The translations under genes and the position numbers were made by a program. Under the pieces are notes generated by a model that saw only the letters and a list, made by a program, of their open reading frames with translations, did not search any database and had not been told where the DNA came from. A DNA stretch of 8,799 bases from Prevotella sp. (lineage in GTDB: Bacteria > Bacteroidota > Bacteroidia > Bacteroidales > Dysgonomonadaceae), in contig JAISKQ010000005.1 of the NCBI GenBank assembly GCA_031260865.1, positions 1 to 8,799 of the forward strand. Reading direction: 5' to 3'. This document shows, piece by piece, positions 368 through 8,326 of the stretch. Every line of letters begins with the position of its first letter. Position 1 is the stretch's first letter.

Positions 368-401
368 TTTGTATCTTTTATGAAAAATCTGTTTATATTT
401 G
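368..401 (+). promoter_or_regulatory. Bacteroidetes-type promoter for the A2M gene
   Basis: TATATTTG at 394-401 is a full match to the Bacteroidetes -7 consensus TAnnTTTG. A TTTG at 368-371 could be the -33 element, although the 22-bp gap is slightly long. Transcription would start near 406-409 and give a leader of about 20 nt before the ATG at 426. The open frame can be extended upstream to a TTG at 399, but that codon lies inside the -7 box, so the ATG is the better start. No Shine-Dalgarno sequence is visible, which is normal in this phylum. Confidence 0.6.
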
Positions 402-425
402 ACACTTAATTTAATACGATCAAAC

Positions 426-3400
426 ATGAAGCCTTTACGAAATATTTTGAAAAACATCATAATAACAGGTTTGTTTTTACTCCCCTTGCATCGTTCACAA
501 GCTCAAACTATCGACTGGCAGGGAACAACAGGGGAAACATACGTTTTTGAAATAAGCAATAATGAAGCGCTAAAACTTCTAAAAAGTCAACCTAAAGACA
601 GCCTGATCCTAAAAATGTTGCATACGCCTAAAGGTTCGTTTAAAGGTAGCCGATGGGATAATGAGCCGAGACAAGGGCACTTTCTTCATGCCAGAATCAT
701 ACGGAATAAAGTGAATTTTAATTATGAACCGGTAATACCCTTTAATGTGTTCCTCTTTAAAGAATACGGAGCGTTAACGATTCAGGTGACGGATATATCG
801 GGCGAAATAAGAGGGGATGCCAAAATTAAACTTGGACGATCACAGATTGAATACGACAAGAATAGCCGGACATATACGACCGATGATTTCTGGTCGGAAG
901 ACCCGACAAGGATACTTACTGTCGAACTGGATAAATTTATGGCTATTTTCGACTTGAGAAAATACCCCGTTTCTTCTTGGTACAGTTCTTATTACGACAG
1001 GAAAGGTCAGTCGCCTGATTTCTACAGCTATATGATTACCGACAAAAATAAATATAAGCCGGGAGAAACCGTCCGCTTCAAGTCTTACGCGCTATCCGGC
1101 AAGAAACGCCCTATAAAGGATTCGCTGGAGATATGGATGAGCATGCCGAACAGATATGAGTATAAAAAAATATCGGCGTTAAGCCCTTATCACGAAGGAG
1201 GTTTCGCGGGAGAAGTAAATCTCGTCGATTCGCTGAAACTCAGGCTGGATCAATCATATTATATCCAACTTAGGGACGATAAGGGAAGAATTGTGTCATC
1301 CACCGTATTTAAGTATGAAGATTATGAACTTTATGACAACAAACTGGAAATAGAGTTGGATAAGAAAATACATTTCTATCCGGATACGAACAAAGTAACA
1401 ATCAAGGCGACAGACGCGAACGGGCTATATCTGTTGGACGCGAAAGCCGATGTGACCATCAAACGAGGGACAGTACACAAATCATATACTGATATTTTAT
1501 CCTTGCCTGACATATTACTGCAGAAGCAGATTGACTTGGACTCGTACGCCCCTACTCTATTCGAGATACCATCGGATATATTTAAACAATCCGATTGCGA
1601 ATATGATGTCAGCGTCAAGATTGTAACATTTGACAATCAACGAATGGAACAACAACGCCGCGCTTCGTTTTATTATTCCGCCAATAACATACAGGCGACC
1701 ACTGATAATGACTCCATTATCACTTTTTCTTTTTATGAATTGGGGAAAGAACGAGCTATTAAAGCGGAGTTGAAATATAATGGGACAGGAGAATCAAAGA
1801 TAATAGACCTGCCTTATTCGGAGGTATTCAACCAGAAGCTTAATTTATACCAGATAAAAGGAATTGACGCGGATGTGAATAAATCCATATTAACGAGTAG
1901 CATTCCATCCCGATTGGATTTAACGGGCGGCATCGAAAAAGATTCGTTTAATGTAAAGTTAGTCAATCCGTTGAATCTGAAAATCTCATGGTATATCTAT
2001 CAGGGAAACAGCTTGTTGGAAAAAGGTTCGGGGACAGAATTTGACTTTAAATACCCAAACACTGATTTAGAAGTTGCCCATTATGTCGAAATGTTTTACT
2101 TCATAGGAGACGAAGAGCAGGCATTCAGGCGGGTATTCGTCCCTAAGACCGAGTTTTTGAATGTGACTATCGACCTTCCGGACAGGGTATATCCCGGACA
2201 AAAGATAAACGCTGCCATATCCGTAAAGGACAACCTGGGGAAAGCTGTTGCGGACGTGGATCTCACGGCGTTATCGGTCAACACGTTATTAGGATATTAC
2301 GTGCCGGATTTGCCATACTACGGAGCGCCTCCACGCACGAGGGAACAACGAGCGTCCTATTCGATGGACGACAGGAGTTATAGTTTTAGTATGCCGTTGG
2401 ATTATAAGTTTTGGAATAGGCTTGCCAATCTAGAAAACACGGATTACTATAAATTTACATACCCTTGGTATACAATGTTTAGGCACATAGTGGATACACC
2501 CGATGGGACTACACAGTTTGCTCCTTATATAATGAAGGATGGAGAGGCTATCGAGATATATGCCATCGAACGGAATGGGCTACCGCTCTATTTCTCATGG
2601 ACAGAACAACCGAAGGCATATTCTTTTCCCGCGATAGACACTACATGCCAAACGATTTCGTTGAGATTGCCGGATAGAGTCATCCGTTTGGATTCAATCT
2701 ACTTTGAGAAAGGGAAGAAAACGATATTCAGCATAGACCTCAGCCATTTACCTGAAAAAGCAAAGGTCATTAAAATCAATAATGGGAATAGCTTTACGAA
2801 CGAAGAAATAAAAAGATATGGTGATTATATTTCGCGCTTACCGGTAAAAGAGAACGCTGATTATACATACATAGAAAAAGACCATGCGATATACCCTGTT
2901 TTCCATAGCTGCCTGATGCCGTATCGCAATAGTGTATTGGCCGGTCCGATTCCCGGCGGATACGCGAGATATGATAATAGTGTGGAATATAACCACGAAG
3001 GGGGATTCTCATACAAATTTGACAAAAATGTAGTCTATAAATATCCTGAAAATGTATTCCCTGCCTATTTGCGGTATAAATACAGTAATGAATTTAATGA
3101 TCTTAACGATTTTGTCCTGAACGCTCAAGAGTTCCGCAGGAAGCTGGTGGAATGTCAAAAAGGAAAATCCGACTGGCATCCGGAGAATATTCATATTTCA
3201 GACTATCGGCTAAATATGAATTTCCGTTTACCAAAGGAAAAAGACATGTCAGGGGTATCCAATTTATTATTTGAAGACACTAAAACAGGGAATATTATCT
3301 ATCCGGACAGGTTTGAATATGATCAACGGCAATATTCCGAAATTCCAGTTGGACAATACAACATCATTTTATTGTACAATAACGGTAAATATCTGAAACA

Positions 3401-5993
3401 AGAAGACATAGCTTTTATCGAAAAGACTTATCTGGATGTAAACATGAGTAAACTGGCTATACATGAGGCGGATTCTGTGTCATTAAAATGGTTATCCTTG
3501 AAATCAGTGAGAATCAAGTACTATACCCCATATACTGTGTCGGAACGAACAATCTTGAAAACAAGCGCAAGGACATTCGGCAACACCATCACAGGTATCG
3601 TAAAAGATGGTACAGGCGAGCCTTTGATCGGCGTGACCATTCAGGTGGCAGGAACCCAATATGGCGCGATTACAGACATGGACGGTAAATTCAGTATCGG
3701 AATCGATGGATATGAAGCGAGATTAAAATTCTCTTATATAGGATATAAGCCTAAAGAAGTGAATGTTTCGGTAAAAAGTGAAATCACTATGATATTGGAG
3801 GAAGACGCGGCTAGCCTTGATGAAGTTGTTGTCGTAGGATATGGCGTACAAAAGAGGAATTATTTAACAGGCTCAGTATCATCTGTAAGTGGCGCGGATA
3901 TAAGTCTTGTCGCTCCACCGGAAGAGCTTGAAGATGTGGCAAACGAGAACAATAATACTACAGATATCGAAGATAGGTTGTATAGCGAATTGATGCAATT
4001 AACCGGGCTACGCTCTAATTTCTCCGATGTCGGATTTTGGGAACCAAGATTGTTTACCGACAAAAAAGGTAAAGCTGAATTTTCAGTAACGTTCCCTGAT
4101 AACATTACTCGATGGGACGCGGTAGTATATGCCATGAACCGCAAGTTAAAAACAGGCACGGCACGCAAGTCCATAAGATCATTTAAGCCATTAATGGCAG
4201 AACTGAAAACGCCGCTATTCCTTGTGGTAGGTGATTCCAGTTATTTTGCCGGCACAATACGCAACTATACGAAAGACGCGGAAATACAGGGCAAAATAAT
4301 GTTCAAGTTGCAGGAAGACACTTTGATGCGGAAAAACATTGATTTTGTTAATTCATATAGCGAAAAGCTGTTTGTAACGGCGACAGCTACAGATAGCATC
4401 ACTACCCAATACCTATTCACTCGCGACGACGGCTACACCGATGGAGAACAACGCGGCATATCCGTGGTCTCACAAGGTACGGAATTAGCGGAAGGAACTT
4501 TGAGATTTTTGAGCAACGGAGATGAAGTGGAAGCGACGGCGGGAGATAACGAAAAGGTATATGTAAGTGTTTCAGGCAAGCAACTCGACGTCTATATGGA
4601 CGCCACGTCTTATCTTACCGGATATAAATACGCATGCAACGAACAATTAGCTTCAAAACTAATCGGCCTGCTTAATTATAGAGTATATCAACAATACTTA
4701 GGTAAAGACTTTAAGCATGACAAACAAGTAGATGAGATTATCGACCGATTGCTAAAGACCCGGAATGATAAACAACTATGGTCATGGTGGGGATTATCGT
4801 CCAACACATCGTTTTGGATATCGGCTCACATTATGAGAGCCTTAAAGATGGCTAAGGATCACGGATATAAAGTAAACTTGGATTTACGCGAAGTAGAGAC
4901 CGATTATGCCGATATTAAGCCTTATAGGGGATCTTCCCTCTCCGATATAGAAATCATACATGCCTTATCGGAATGGGGCGCGAAACAGGATTATGCCAAA
5001 GCGGTGGATATACTCGAAAAGGAGGTAAAACGAAGTCAGGCTTATGACGATTCCATGGTGGATGTTAATCGCGGAAAGTATAACTACTACTCCCAAAAGC
5101 GCTCTTATCTGAAAGAAAAATTATTGTTATTGGAAATCCGCCAAAAGCAAAACATTGGATATGAATCTGATAGTTTAACAAAGTATCTAAAAAAAGCGAT
5201 CTTGGGTGAGATATATTGTGATGACGGCAGAGCAGCTCGCGATTGGTATTCCGATAAATTAAACAATACGCTCATCGCTTACCGCATCATAAGGAACGAC
5301 TCTGTACTGCAAGCATTGAAAGAACCCATGCAAATGTACATTCTGGGGACTAAAGCCAACGGATGGAATACATATCAGGCCGCGTCAGCCTTAGCTACCG
5401 TATTTCCCGATCTTATAGCAGAAGCGTATAGCAAAGACAAGCCCGCGACAGTTATGCTGAGTGGAAAAGAAAATAAGGCTATCACAAAGTTCCCTTATAA
5501 TACCGAACTTAACCCGGGGGAAAGTCTGAAAATACAGAAAAAAGACGGTATGCCGCTAATTTATACCGCGTACAGCTACAAATTGGTAACCACCGAACAT
5601 ACCGGTGAGGCATTCAAAGTAAATACTTACCTACCGAATGTTGATAAATTAACCGCCGGAGTTCCGGCTACTTTATCGGTAATAGTGGATGTAAAACAAG
5701 AAAAAGCAACGTATGTGATGATAGAAGTGCCTATTCCGGCCGGATGTAGCTATATATCTAAAAGACAGAACTATTCATATCGGAACGGGGAAGTCTATCG
5801 GGAATATTTCAAAGAGAAAGTTGTTATTTTCTGCGAAAGCTTACCTCCGGGAATATACACATACAATATCGAGCTATTACCGAGATACACAGGCAGTTAT
5901 ATCCTAAATCCAGCAAAAGTGGAGTTGATGTATTTCCCTGTGATAAACGCGAACAATAACCTGCGAAGAATCAACATAATAGAAAGAGAATAA
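426..5993 (+). CDS. Secreted alpha-2-macroglobulin family protein with thioester and embedded SusC-like segment
   Basis: 1855 residues, within the usual size range of bacterial A2M proteins, which trap proteases or shield the envelope. A signal peptide (residues 1-26) ends SQA|Q; no lipobox cysteine is present, so it looks soluble rather than lipidated. Visible in order: MG2-like strand region near 200-290 (YMITDKNKYKPGETVRFKSY), further macroglobulin-type domains to about 570, a bait-region-type domain at 578-655, about 400 unassigned residues, a carboxypeptidase-regulatory domain (about 1052-1127), a TonB-box-like stretch (LDEVVVVGYG, 1131-1140), the A2M domain around GFWEPRLFTDKKGKAEF (W1205), the thioester motif CNEQ (Cys1404-Gln1407), toroid-type helices with WSWWG (1452-1456), and the typical C-terminal domain (PIPAG 1769-1773, MY 1835-1836). 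The start at 426 follows from the promoter and signal peptide. No pbpC (PBP1c) gene, the partner in proteobacteria, is adjacent. Family assignment is firm; substrate and location are inferred. Confidence 0.93.
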   Translation: MKPLRNILKNIIITGLFLLPLHRSQAQTIDWQGTTGETYVFEISNNEALKLLKSQPKDSLILKMLHTPKGSFKGSRWDNEPRQGHFLHARIIRNKVNFNYEPVIPFNVFLFKEYGALTIQVTDISGEIRGDAKIKLGRSQIEYDKNSRTYTTDDFWSEDPTRILTVELDKFMAIFDLRKYPVSSWYSSYYDRKGQSPDFYSYMITDKNKYKPGETVRFKSYALSGKKRPIKDSLEIWMSMPNRYEYKKISALSPYHEGGFAGEVNLVDSLKLRLDQSYYIQLRDDKGRIVSSTVFKYEDYELYDNKLEIELDKKIHFYPDTNKVTIKATDANGLYLLDAKADVTIKRGTVHKSYTDILSLPDILLQKQIDLDSYAPTLFEIPSDIFKQSDCEYDVSVKIVTFDNQRMEQQRRASFYYSANNIQATTDNDSIITFSFYELGKERAIKAELKYNGTGESKIIDLPYSEVFNQKLNLYQIKGIDADVNKSILTSSIPSRLDLTGGIEKDSFNVKLVNPLNLKISWYIYQGNSLLEKGSGTEFDFKYPNTDLEVAHYVEMFYFIGDEEQAFRRVFVPKTEFLNVTIDLPDRVYPGQKINAAISVKDNLGKAVADVDLTALSVNTLLGYYVPDLPYYGAPPRTREQRASYSMDDRSYSFSMPLDYKFWNRLANLENTDYYKFTYPWYTMFRHIVDTPDGTTQFAPYIMKDGEAIEIYAIERNGLPLYFSWTEQPKAYSFPAIDTTCQTISLRLPDRVIRLDSIYFEKGKKTIFSIDLSHLPEKAKVIKINNGNSFTNEEIKRYGDYISRLPVKENADYTYIEKDHAIYPVFHSCLMPYRNSVLAGPIPGGYARYDNSVEYNHEGGFSYKFDKNVVYKYPENVFPAYLRYKYSNEFNDLNDFVLNAQEFRRKLVECQKGKSDWHPENIHISDYRLNMNFRLPKEKDMSGVSNLLFEDTKTGNIIYPDRFEYDQRQYSEIPVGQYNIILLYNNGKYLKQEDIAFIEKTYLDVNMSKLAIHEADSVSLKWLSLKSVRIKYYTPYTVSERTILKTSARTFGNTITGIVKDGTGEPLIGVTIQVAGTQYGAITDMDGKFSIGIDGYEARLKFSYIGYKPKEVNVSVKSEITMILEEDAASLDEVVVVGYGVQKRNYLTGSVSSVSGADISLVAPPEELEDVANENNNTTDIEDRLYSELMQLTGLRSNFSDVGFWEPRLFTDKKGKAEFSVTFPDNITRWDAVVYAMNRKLKTGTARKSIRSFKPLMAELKTPLFLVVGDSSYFAGTIRNYTKDAEIQGKIMFKLQEDTLMRKNIDFVNSYSEKLFVTATATDSITTQYLFTRDDGYTDGEQRGISVVSQGTELAEGTLRFLSNGDEVEATAGDNEKVYVSVSGKQLDVYMDATSYLTGYKYACNEQLASKLIGLLNYRVYQQYLGKDFKHDKQVDEIIDRLLKTRNDKQLWSWWGLSSNTSFWISAHIMRALKMAKDHGYKVNLDLREVETDYADIKPYRGSSLSDIEIIHALSEWGAKQDYAKAVDILEKEVKRSQAYDDSMVDVNRGKYNYYSQKRSYLKEKLLLLEIRQKQNIGYESDSLTKYLKKAILGEIYCDDGRAARDWYSDKLNNTLIAYRIIRNDSVLQALKEPMQMYILGTKANGWNTYQAASALATVFPDLIAEAYSKDKPATVMLSGKENKAITKFPYNTELNPGESLKIQKKDGMPLIYTAYSYKLVTTEHTGEAFKVNTYLPNVDKLTAGVPATLSVIVDVKQEKATYVMIEVPIPAGCSYISKRQNYSYRNGEVYREYFKEKVVIFCESLPPGIYTYNIELLPRYTGSYILNPAKVELMYFPVINANNNLRRINIIERE
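3579..3902 (+). other. SusC/RagA N-terminus-like segment inside the A2M coding sequence
   Basis: Residues 1052-1159 of the A2M protein follow the N-terminal pattern of SusC-family transporters: GNTITGIVKDGTGEPLIGV, then a G.Q.GAITDMDGKFSI turn, FSYIGYKPKEV, a closing ITMILEED, the TonB-box-like LDEVVVVGYGVQKR (1131-1144), and LTGSVSSVSGADI (1147-1159), which resembles the start of a SusC plug domain. The plug stops there; an acidic, Asn-rich linker (about 1163-1185) follows and leads into the A2M domain. The carboxypeptidase-regulatory fold alone is common in Bacteroidetes surface proteins; the contiguous TonB-box and plug start is what ties the segment to SusC. Whether it contacts TonB is unknown. 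Confidence 0.85.
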
Positions 5994-6196: not shown

Positions 6197-6706
6197 ATGA
6201 AAACTAAAAAACAGTCATTAGAACAAAGTTTGATTGGTATGCAAAACAACATGTTGAACTTTGCGATGAGCCTTACAACAAACAGAGAGAAGGCTAAGGA
6301 CTTGACGCAAGAAACAACACTGAAAGCCTTAAGCAACATTGACAAGTATTATGACAATGTGAACTTTAAAGGATGGGTTTTCACAATCATGCACAATATT
6401 TTCGTGAACAATTACAGACGCACTGTCCGTAGTCAATTGATAATCGATCAATCAGAAAATTCATACTTGTTAAATCTATCGCAGAGCTCAGGCTTCAACA
6501 CTCCTGATGGCGCGTATTCATATTCTGAAATAACCAAAGTGTTGGATAATTTCGCGAATGAATACAAGAATCCTTTTGTCATGCACTTTTCAGGGTATAA
6601 GTACGAAGAGATAGCCAAAAACCTAAACTTACCGTTAGGAACGGTGAAAAGCCGTATCTTCTTTGCCCGGAAAAGGTTACAGGAAATATTGAAAGATTAC
6701 AGATAA
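6197..6706 (+). CDS. RNA polymerase ECF sigma factor (no adjacent anti-sigma gene)
   Basis: A 169-residue sigma-70 family protein of the ECF type, which would direct RNA polymerase to a specific promoter set. Region 2 spans about residues 15-78, with AKDLTQETTLKAL (33-45) as the core-binding helix and NFKGWVFTIMHNIFVNNYRR (56-75) as the -10-reading helix. Region 4 spans about 110-164 and ends in a helix-turn-helix, YEEIAKNLNLPLGTVKSRIF (136-155). A purine-rich AAGGA (6189-6193) stands only 3 nt before the ATG, closer than usual. No anti-sigma gene follows: the next gene is convergent, beyond a terminator. It shares a strand with the A2M gene upstream but is separated by 203 bp and has its own promoter candidates. 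The family is clear; the regulon and the inducing signal are unknown. Confidence 0.92.
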   Translation: MKTKKQSLEQSLIGMQNNMLNFAMSLTTNREKAKDLTQETTLKALSNIDKYYDNVNFKGWVFTIMHNIFVNNYRRTVRSQLIIDQSENSYLLNLSQSSGFNTPDGAYSYSEITKVLDNFANEYKNPFVMHFSGYKYEEIAKNLNLPLGTVKSRIFFARKRLQEILKDYR

Positions 6707-6773: not shown

Positions 6774-7193
6774 TTATCCGCCTTGCTCTTCCACATAGAA
6801 AAATTGCGCGGTGACAATCACCTCCCCGTTACTCTTAAATTCAAACAGGTATCTTGTGTCAAATCCTTTTTCATTGAAACGGCAGAAATCGGGATGTACC
6901 ACGCCTTTCGACCTCTTTTCGGACACATTATAGGCATTCTTTTTATCTTGCTCAAAAGCATTTAAAAGATCTTTCAACAGCGCCTCGTTGTTACTGAAAG
7001 TAACCTTAATGGTCTTACGTTCTTCTTTTTTTGTTTCCGGATTTTTGTAATTTATCACTGTCATATCAACGGTGGAAATACCTTCACATTTCGTCAGCCA
7101 GTTCTTTAACGATTGCTGCGCCGATAGTTTCGACAGCGACGCACCAGCCAAAAGGCAGATTATAATTAAACTAATTTTACAGACTTTCATCAT
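6774..7193 (-). CDS. Small secreted protein of unknown function, DUF5024-like
   Basis: 139 residues. A hydrophobic signal peptide (about 1-25, core ISLIIICLLAGASL) ends LSA|QQ; the Cys at 13 is preceded by III, so it is not a lipobox and the product is probably soluble in the periplasm or exported. The mature part of about 114 residues begins with a KNWLTKCEGIS segment, followed by alternating charged strands (TVDMTVINYKNPETKKEERK, IKVTF), a helix with FEQDKKNAYNVSEKRSKG, and a final strand pair ending AQFFYVEEQGG. The overall look recalls the Bacteroides family DUF5024, assigned from memory and not verified. It is the last gene of the sigma/anti-sigma operon, 62 bp after the membrane protein, with no promoter box seen in that gap. 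Two ATGs in a row (7193 and 7190) leave the start uncertain by one codon. The A-rich leader is typical for the phylum. Confidence 0.8.
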   Translation of the reverse strand: MMKVCKISLIIICLLAGASLSKLSAQQSLKNWLTKCEGISTVDMTVINYKNPETKKEERKTIKVTFSNNEALLKDLLNAFEQDKKNAYNVSEKRSKGVVHPDFCRFNEKGFDTRYLFEFKSNGEVIVTAQFFYVEEQGG

Positions 7194-7255: not shown

Positions 7256-7774
7256 TTATAATCCGGAATTTATCATATTCTCTATTTTTCTGTCCATTTC
7301 AGAATATTCCTGTAATTTCTTCTCCGGTAAATGAGTTATGGCGGCAAGTTCTTTTTCCTTCATATCCATTTTCAATTGGATCGCTCTGTCTTCCGCCTCA
7401 ATCATCTTCAGGTCTTCTATTTTTTCTCTGTTTTTTACAATGTAACTGCCTTCGTATGGATTGAATGTATCAACTCGATTCATTATCAACGATTTAATCA
7501 GCAACAACGCTAAAACAGAAGCGGCAGCCGCGGCTATCGCCAACCACTTTCGGCGATGGTTATTCTTGATAATCCTTGCCGGTATGGTATTTCTTACAGG
7601 TTCGCTCTTTATGTCATTTTCGAAATATTCAAAGACCGGCTTATAAGGCTGCAATTCTTCGGGTATATCCTCTTTATGAAAGAATGAATACAACTCCCGT
7701 TCTTCAGCATTGGATGTTTTACCATCGAAAAAACGCTCCAATAAATCTCCTATATGTTTATCTTTCTCTGTCAT
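7256..7774 (-). CDS. Single-pass membrane anti-sigma-like protein
   Basis: 172 residues. The N-terminal part (1-75) is cytoplasmic in type: GDLLERFFDGKTSNAEEREL resembles the opening of Bacteroidetes anti-sigma factors (LL..Y.DG..S..E...L). One membrane segment follows (about 77-97, LAIAAAAASVLALLLIKSLI) after a basic NNHRRK, which fits N-in/C-out. The C-terminal part (about 98-172) is short, rich in E, K and M, and probably helical; the FecR domain found in many Bacteroides anti-sigma factors is absent. The start at 7774 is preferred over an upstream ATG at 7855 because its ATG overlaps the sigma stop as ATGA (7774-7771), typical of translational coupling; the longer version would add 27 residues that run back through the sigma gene. 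The role is inferred from position, topology and the N-terminal pattern. A sensor that is not an anti-sigma factor remains possible. Confidence 0.85.
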   Translation of the reverse strand: MTEKDKHIGDLLERFFDGKTSNAEERELYSFFHKEDIPEELQPYKPVFEYFENDIKSEPVRNTIPARIIKNNHRRKWLAIAAAAASVLALLLIKSLIMNRVDTFNPYEGSYIVKNREKIEDLKMIEAEDRAIQLKMDMKEKELAAITHLPEKKLQEYSEMDRKIENMINSGL

Positions 7775-8268
7775 AGTCCTTGCTTTTTGAAAAAAAGTTC
7801 TTTTACACGTTTTCGGGCGCGCGACAAGCTCATGTAAATTGTGCCGGGCTTGCATCCGGTAATTTCGGCTATTTCTTCCACCTCCAGCCCGTCGATATGT
7901 TTCATCCGGAGGATGATCTGTTGCGACTCGGGCAGTTGGTCAATGATACGTATCAAATGCTCCATATCATCCTTTTGAACCAATTGCATATCAGGAGTAA
8001 GCGATTCACTTTCCATGATTATGCTATCCGCCATCTTCACATTGTGCTTATCCGCCCTTAGTTTATTGATGCAAAGATGCTTCGTTATCCGGATAGAGAG
8101 CGCGTATATGCTATCATATCCATCAAGAGTTTCACGCATAAGCCAAAGTTTCAGCAATACCTCCTGAATAATATCTTCGGTATCGTCCTCTTTTATAAAT
8201 CGCCGCGCGTAATTCTCCAGTCGGCGGCGATATGATAAAACCTCTGTGATGAATCGCTCTTTTTCCAT
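7771..8268 (-). CDS. RNA polymerase ECF sigma factor, first gene of a sigma/anti-sigma operon
   Basis: 165 residues from the ATG at 8268. Region 2 covers about 18-72: DTEDIIQEVLLKLW (29-42) is the core-binding helix and YDSIYALSIRITKHLCINKL (51-70) the -10 recognition part. Region 4 covers about 106-158: LPESQQIILRMKHIDGLEVE then a helix-turn-helix, EIAEITGCKPGTIYMSLSRA (132-151). An in-frame ATG at 8289 would add MIVYISI, which looks unlike the family's N-terminus, so the shorter form is favoured; neither start has a Shine-Dalgarno sequence. The stop overlaps the next gene's start (ATGA), so sigma factor and membrane partner are probably made together. No clear Bacteroidetes promoter was found upstream; TAGATTTT (minus strand, 8304-8297) is a one-mismatch -7 candidate. 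The upstream region enters a repeat array within about 60 bp. Autoregulation is common in such operons but not shown here. Confidence 0.92.
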   Translation of the reverse strand: MEKERFITEVLSYRRRLENYARRFIKEDDTEDIIQEVLLKLWLMRETLDGYDSIYALSIRITKHLCINKLRADKHNVKMADSIIMESESLTPDMQLVQKDDMEHLIRIIDQLPESQQIILRMKHIDGLEVEEIAEITGCKPGTIYMSLSRARKRVKELFFKKQGL

Positions 8269-8326
8269 GATACTAATATAGACAATCATAAGCTAAAAAT
8301 CTAACACGGATATGCACTCTTTTTCT

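Follow-up and report, generated by a model that had tools for sequence, protein, structure and literature searches.

The 8,799-nucleotide stretch of Prevotella sp. DNA analyzed here (the window) encodes an alpha-2-macroglobulin (A2M) whose predicted bait site carries the N-terminal part of a SusC transporter; we tentatively propose that the conserved TonB box of this insert docks the protease trap on TonB. The window protein is a thioester alpha-2-macroglobulin. Its gene, like all of its features given below, lies on the forward strand at 426..5993, within an open reading frame at 399..5993; reading from the ATG at 426 gives 1855 aa. The ATG is followed by a signal-peptide-like stretch (judged by eye) without a lipobox, and a lipobox regular expression run over the first 45 aa gave 0 matches in 120/120 family members (the best 120 of 6045, some N-terminally incomplete). 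A Pfam scan placed the A2M domain PF00207 (MG7) at 4035..4280 (residues 1204-1285; E 7.7e-17, 61.4 bits against a cut-off of 21) and bMG10 (PF17973) at 5646..5939 (residues 1741-1838; score 49.2, cut-off 26.2), together with a weak MG2 match below its cut-off. The thioester motif CNEQ is present at 4635..4646 (residues 1404-1407), and CxEQ is column-aligned in 120/120 members of the window family (best 120 of 6045). In a fold search, the predicted model showed the A2M fold of a type I bacterial alpha-2-macroglobulin, with 4u48 and 5a42 among its matches.

The foreign segment was recognized most clearly by the NCBIfam model TIGR04056 (OMP_RagA_SusC), which matches residues 1054-1160 in a single stretch to model positions 2-107 of 981 (E 7.6e-39). 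PF13715 (CarbopepD_reg_2) matches residues 1055-1136 (E 1.5e-19), and the nearest solved sequences are the SusC homologues 8aa4 (E 6e-21) and 5t3r (E 1.1e-15), which share with the segment the order N-terminal extension (NTE), box, LTG(A/S)VS. These matches establish the segment as genuine and derived from SusC, well outside what chance would give. A low-confidence linker at 3504..3578 (residues 1027-1051; pLDDT <50) leads into the SusC-type NTE (CarbopepD_reg_2) at 3585..3806 (residues 1054-1127). The TonB box LDEVVVVGYG follows at 3816..3845 (residues 1131-1140), the counterpart of 81-VDEVVV-86 in Bt1763, and then the first plug strand, LTGSVSSVSGADI, at 3864..3902 (residues 1147-1159); the remaining plug is absent. 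An acidic linker at 3891..3965 (residues 1156-1180), of variable length, low conservation, and low pLDDT, is likely the bait proper. The plug family PF07715 gave no match in the window protein up to E 1, the Pfam scan detected no beta-barrel family, and the SusC/RagA model score of 133.8 bits lies below the family cut-off of 368.25. The protein thus has the NTE and TonB box of SusC/RagA transporters and lacks their whole plug, their barrel, and a family-level score. The E value of the TIGR04056 match, together with the same layout in 119 relatives (best of 6045), rules out chance or a frame artefact, and the relatives and the tree described below rule out a one-off recent insertion in this genome.

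The original prediction held that 3579..3902 (residues 1052-1159) follows the SusC/RagA N-terminus within an A2M protein, that the plug is gone beyond its first residues, and that the segment might have been captured from a susC gene. The TIGR04056 match bears out the first point and its end at model position 107 the second; the search against SusC families, which fit the segment better than generic regulatory domains, and the SusC origin of the segment lend weight to capture. Docking onto SusC/D complexes, another suggestion made there, drew no support from the analysis. The placement between two A2M halves could be refined to the predicted bait-region site. The bait-site position, the large family, and the plug-keeping relatives had been missed.

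This position rests on an AF2 model and a VIA alignment, in which residue 573 of human A2M is paired with the first residue of the model. An MG6-like domain starts at 2178..2300 (residues 585-625), and residues 1195-1282 align with human A2M 731-818. The insert therefore lies directly upstream of MG7, the domain that comes after the bait region in human A2M. In the model, the NTE is folded (block pLDDT 75-86). The TonB box has pLDDT <50, which is predicted disorder rather than proof of it, and forms no strand in the A2M-fold model, so the burial of the LDEVVVVGYG strand in the A2M fold, which would have spoken against the original prediction, is not seen. The linker after the box (1156-1180) has pLDDT of about 30 to 47. 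The TonB box and the following acidic linker are accordingly modelled as disordered and exposed, and the insert position and the predicted disorder are consistent with a bait region between MG6 and MG7. The model of a plug-bearing relative, L120, had a mean pLDDT of 58 and was left out of the fold searches. Complement C3/C5 also match the window model in fold and carry a foreign domain at the same site, since their ANATO domain is placed between MG6 and MG7. We know of no kinship between ANATO and the NTE, and of no TonB box in C3/C5.

Among known systems, the type I proteins E. coli ECAM/YfhM and Salmonella SaA2M share with the window protein PF00207, bMG10, CXEQ, the A2M fold, and a disordered stretch before MG7, according to the available parts of their descriptions (PMC4498604, PMC5764988). 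In the window protein, unlike both, the bait site holds a SusC NTE and a TonB box. ECAM is a lipoprotein according to its PDB entries, whereas the window family is without a lipobox by regular expression. No PBP1C-type gene was found in the window's other four scanned ORFs or in eight neighbour ORFs of five relatives, and the window A2M branches separately from 53 other Bacteroidota A2Ms. The SusC/RagA transporters (Bt1763, RagA) have the NTE, TonB box, and first plug strand in the order found in the window protein, which is without their plug body and barrel. In the portions of the Bt1763 study available, the box 81-VDEVVV-86 comes after the NTE (Pfam 13715) and is flexible in the NMR structure of the NTE, its deletion or mutation leads to a levan growth defect resembling SusD loss, and what the NTE does in SusC is termed unknown (PMC7782687).

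The insert is a lasting feature of a large family. A search returned 6045 proteins with E ≤0.001, of which the best 120, the window's own among them, form the set to which all values in this paragraph refer; a scan of named genomes with the single sequence as query had found 2 relatives only. PF13715 and PF00207 are both present in 120/120, and one family cluster (P0083) represents 10,869 member sequences. The box regular expression fits 115/120; three of the five misses differ little from it, and the other two (P0086, P0119) diverge further. The mean majority fraction is 0.854 for the box, compared with 0.789 for MG7, 0.688 for the TED, 0.598 for the whole protein, and 0.592 for the NTE, and it falls to 0.335 in the linker after the box and 0.184 in the linker before the NTE (1027-1052). 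The box is the most conserved stretch of ten residues in the insert (better windows, 0/120). Over the whole protein, 71/1846 ten-residue windows outdo it; the 220 residues lying upstream contain no such window. Box identity is still 79% in random pairs less than 45% identical overall (436/1500, mean 42%). For the SusC boxes of the window genome, 16 in number, the mean is 0.70, a comparison of orthologues with paralogues that proves little. Plug-like bits also occur in the family linkers: a GRVAG-like motif in 14/120 (shuffles, mean 0.22) and an RG motif in 15/120 (shuffles, mean 1.07). The conservation of the box is a constraint and says nothing of its cause.

A search with a plug-keeping relative scored 7994 proteins, 5094 of them at E ≤0.001, and the best 120 were taken as a sister family, which includes members from Sphingobacterium multivorum, Chitinophaga, Niabella, Proteiniphilum, and Bacteroides. 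Like the window protein, these A2Ms have a thioester and the NTE and TonB box before MG7 (PF00207 in 120/120; CxEQ column-aligned in 120/120; best 120 of 5094). Unlike the window family, they mostly keep the plug at the same A2M site (PF07715 in 99/120). The box regular expression fits 105/120, the other 15 being mostly variants, and conservation in the same 120 of 5094 is 0.813 for the box, 0.748 for the C-terminal motif of the plug, 0.681 for MG7, 0.532 for the whole protein, and 0.307 for the linker before MG7. Three of 195 windows in the sister insert, at YGxRxANGV, outdo the box. Four A2Ms (P0201, P0204, P0215, and P0221) are named SusC/RagA outer membrane receptors by one source, likely a misannotation caused by the plug domain.

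In a tree of 188 A2M cores, the window family forms 47 leaves (support 1.0) and is joined to the plug-bearing family, 111 leaves together (support 0.907). The sampled window-family entries have NTE and box in 41/41 and a plug in 0/41 (two entries are the window's own protein), and in six further loci of this clade NTE and box were called and a plug in none. Among 60 sampled sister proteins, 54 have NTE, box, and plug, 5 are without a box call, and 1 has the NTE only. Parsimony within the 111-leaf clade alone is ambiguous on plug loss. Loss becomes the likelier reading because L042 and L088, which carry a plug, have their branches close to this clade; the nodes below it have support of 0.18 to 1.0. 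The window family thus likely lost the plug and retained NTE and box; judging from the conservation of the box and the tree placement of the plug-less family, the box likely outlived the plug.

We propose that an ancestral A2M took up a SusC NTE-box-plug module at its bait site and that the window family then lost most of the plug, retaining NTE and box. As in SusC, the C-terminal domain of TonB would pair with the strand of the box, and this pairing would keep the trap at the contact between TonB and the outer membrane. An incoming protease could then cut the variable linker beside the box, upon which the thioester would be released and the protease bound. A docking motif beside the bait fits better than a bait acting as a mimic, since the box is constrained while the adjoining linker varies, seems to have survived the loss of the plug, and is predicted to be free. 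Three TonB_C domains over cut-off were found in the window genome, which is incomplete, and TonB coupling of the window A2M is plausible. We are close to evenly divided on docking as a whole. Against it, L086, whose MG7-TED is 36% identical to that of the window, among the closest outside the family, shows no module. It also leaves unexplained L037 and L131, whose baits have plug pieces but no box. A part of the sister plug also outdoes the box in conservation, and a bare docking motif needs no plug.

The wider clade bears on a second reading, in which the bait is an integrated decoy that mimics the periplasmic face of SusC (TonB box, plug) and diverts a SusC-attacking protease to the trap. 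We consider this possible, though somewhat improbable. In the phylum, 66/148 sampled genomes contain PF00207, which occurs at 87 places in all. Loci L001-L138 gave 138 A2M ORFs, 136 of them distinct; the set is not random, as many loci were chosen by similarity to the window, and the TonB-receptor profiles were built only from 16 SusC proteins of the window genome. The combined profile (S_ALL) detected 31 domains in 29/136 A2Ms, and all 31 lie at the bait site, at most 400 residues upstream of MG7, which favors the decoy; reversed sequences gave no matches to this profile. Single-module matches fall within the same distance for the box in 23/23, the plug in 11/11, and the NTE in 24/25 cases, and at least one TonB-receptor module is present in 31/136 distinct A2Ms. 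An outgroup-rooted tree unites 83 A2Ms in one clade (support 1.0), with 30 profile-positive members (33 with the regular expression added), a recognizable box in 26, and no detected TonB-receptor piece in 50; the remaining 53 A2Ms have a single weak NTE only. An even spread through Bacteroidota A2Ms, which would have weakened the original prediction, is thus not seen (30/83 against 1 weak case in 53). With a box in 26/83 members and no detected piece in 50/83, docking is not general in the wider clade.

Also in favor of a decoy, receptor motifs are enriched in 81 clade baits over shuffles: the box in 22 (mean 0.04), a GRVAG-like motif in 12 (mean 0.08), and an RG motif in 31 (mean 4.35). The corresponding counts are 0, 1, and 16 in 430 other windows of the same clade proteins, and the 53 A2Ms outside the clade have 0, 0, and 1 in their baits. 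Short receptor fragments turn up repeatedly, and some depart from the SusC order: they are short or out of order in L030, L032, L038, L045, and L128, and in L032 GRVQGMVIRG precedes LEEVVVTGY, with L030, L038, and L045 similar. The bait of L009, upstream of MG7, contains LDEVIVVSERPLIEKSSTNTTRIVSSDEI, which to us resembles how a TonB receptor of a non-Sus class begins. A TonB-receptor match is present in 26 baits; in 6 of these a receptor is a better match than any other A2M bait, and in 20 it is not, with a receptor set nearly all from one genus. This suggests several captures in addition to the old one, and the short NTE-box segment tree, with its mixed support, hints at the same. A second A2M of the window genome (L001, contig C266) has most of its bait cut by the contig end.

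Several observations weigh against the decoy. Bait regions tend to be variable, yet the box is conserved in both the window and sister families while a separate linker varies. The plug of the A2Ms follows a consensus of its own (NGLP, RAANGVIMIQT), as against IDGVP and NGVIIITTK in SusC, which does not resemble a mimicry still under way. The decoy further requires a SusC-attacking protease, and we know of none that attacks SusC in this manner. For the shuffled pieces of the wider clade it is the better fit, and it may apply in that clade; the conserved sister plug is fully accounted for by neither docking nor decoy.

We regard as unlikely a passive capture, in which flexible, periplasm-stable N-termini of the numerous susC genes recombined in as bait linkers with no specific partner: it would suit the 50/83 clade members without a detected piece and the turnover outside the window family, where the plug of L134 reaches 63% identity with a SusC-like ORF (1035 aa) from its own genus and L107, L130, L133, L135, and L136, also of that genus, have none detected, but it predicts drift, whereas the box is conserved over 240 proteins of two families (best 120 of 6045 and best 120 of 5094) and was likely retained when the plug was lost. 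Nor did any barrel piece come along, as the window protein and ten plug-bearing segments match the SusC model no further than position 242 of its 981; these segments, picked for plug matches, have PF07715 over cut-off in 10/10 and the SusC signature TIGR04057 in 9/10.

Docking on TonB thus remains our preferred reading for the window family. Elsewhere in the window, ECF sigma factor genes lie at 6197-6706 (+) and 7771-8289 (-), and a DUF5024 protein is encoded at 6774-7193 (-). An ORF at 7256-7855 (-) overlaps the second sigma gene and has no Pfam family over cut-off; our guess is an anti-sigma protein. Linkage to ECF sigma genes was rejected, as no sigma factor occurs among eight neighbour ORFs of five family loci (L113, L114, L180, L181, and L183), which encode an MscS channel, a TonB-dependent receptor, radical SAM, HTH, GH2, M23, Hsp20, and GH76 proteins. 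The A2M neighbourhood therefore looks unconserved. Pieces of TonB receptors were also met in other settings. The genome of the plug-bearing L134 encodes a 549-aa protein (L169:1976-3625, -) that combines a BlaR1-type M56 peptidase domain (47.1 bits; cut-off 31) with three tandem plug stretches (PF07715, E 1.8e-21), by its domain matches a second protease-related protein reusing plug pieces. Two SusC-like proteins of 1623 and 1645 aa (L170:1408-6279, -, and L171:1479-6413, -) have VIT and vWA domains between NTE and plug; these domains also occur in inter-alpha-trypsin inhibitor heavy chains.

To our knowledge, TonB boxes are known only from outer-membrane transporters. The pairing of A2M with SusC-type domains is already visible in database annotation. 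We found no account of an A2M with a TonB box or plug in Bacteroidetes, mainly in openly accessible literature with a wider search by title and abstract, and none of an M56 peptidase with a TonB-dependent receptor plug in Bacteroidetes in the literature searched. The labelling of some such A2Ms as SusC receptors by one source is a warning to users of these annotations. The window A2M offers a natural test of the function of NTE and box without a barrel. If protease traps have long kept a TonB box, often together with a plug, then a defence protein of a large phylum would be served by TonB or keep watch on it. It is quite unlikely, in our estimate, that pulling by TonB on the box at the bait site harnesses the proton-motive force for placing, arming, or triggering an immune-type A2M in the Bacteroidota periplasm; if true, such a TonB-powered trap would make TonB an energy source for defence, beyond import.
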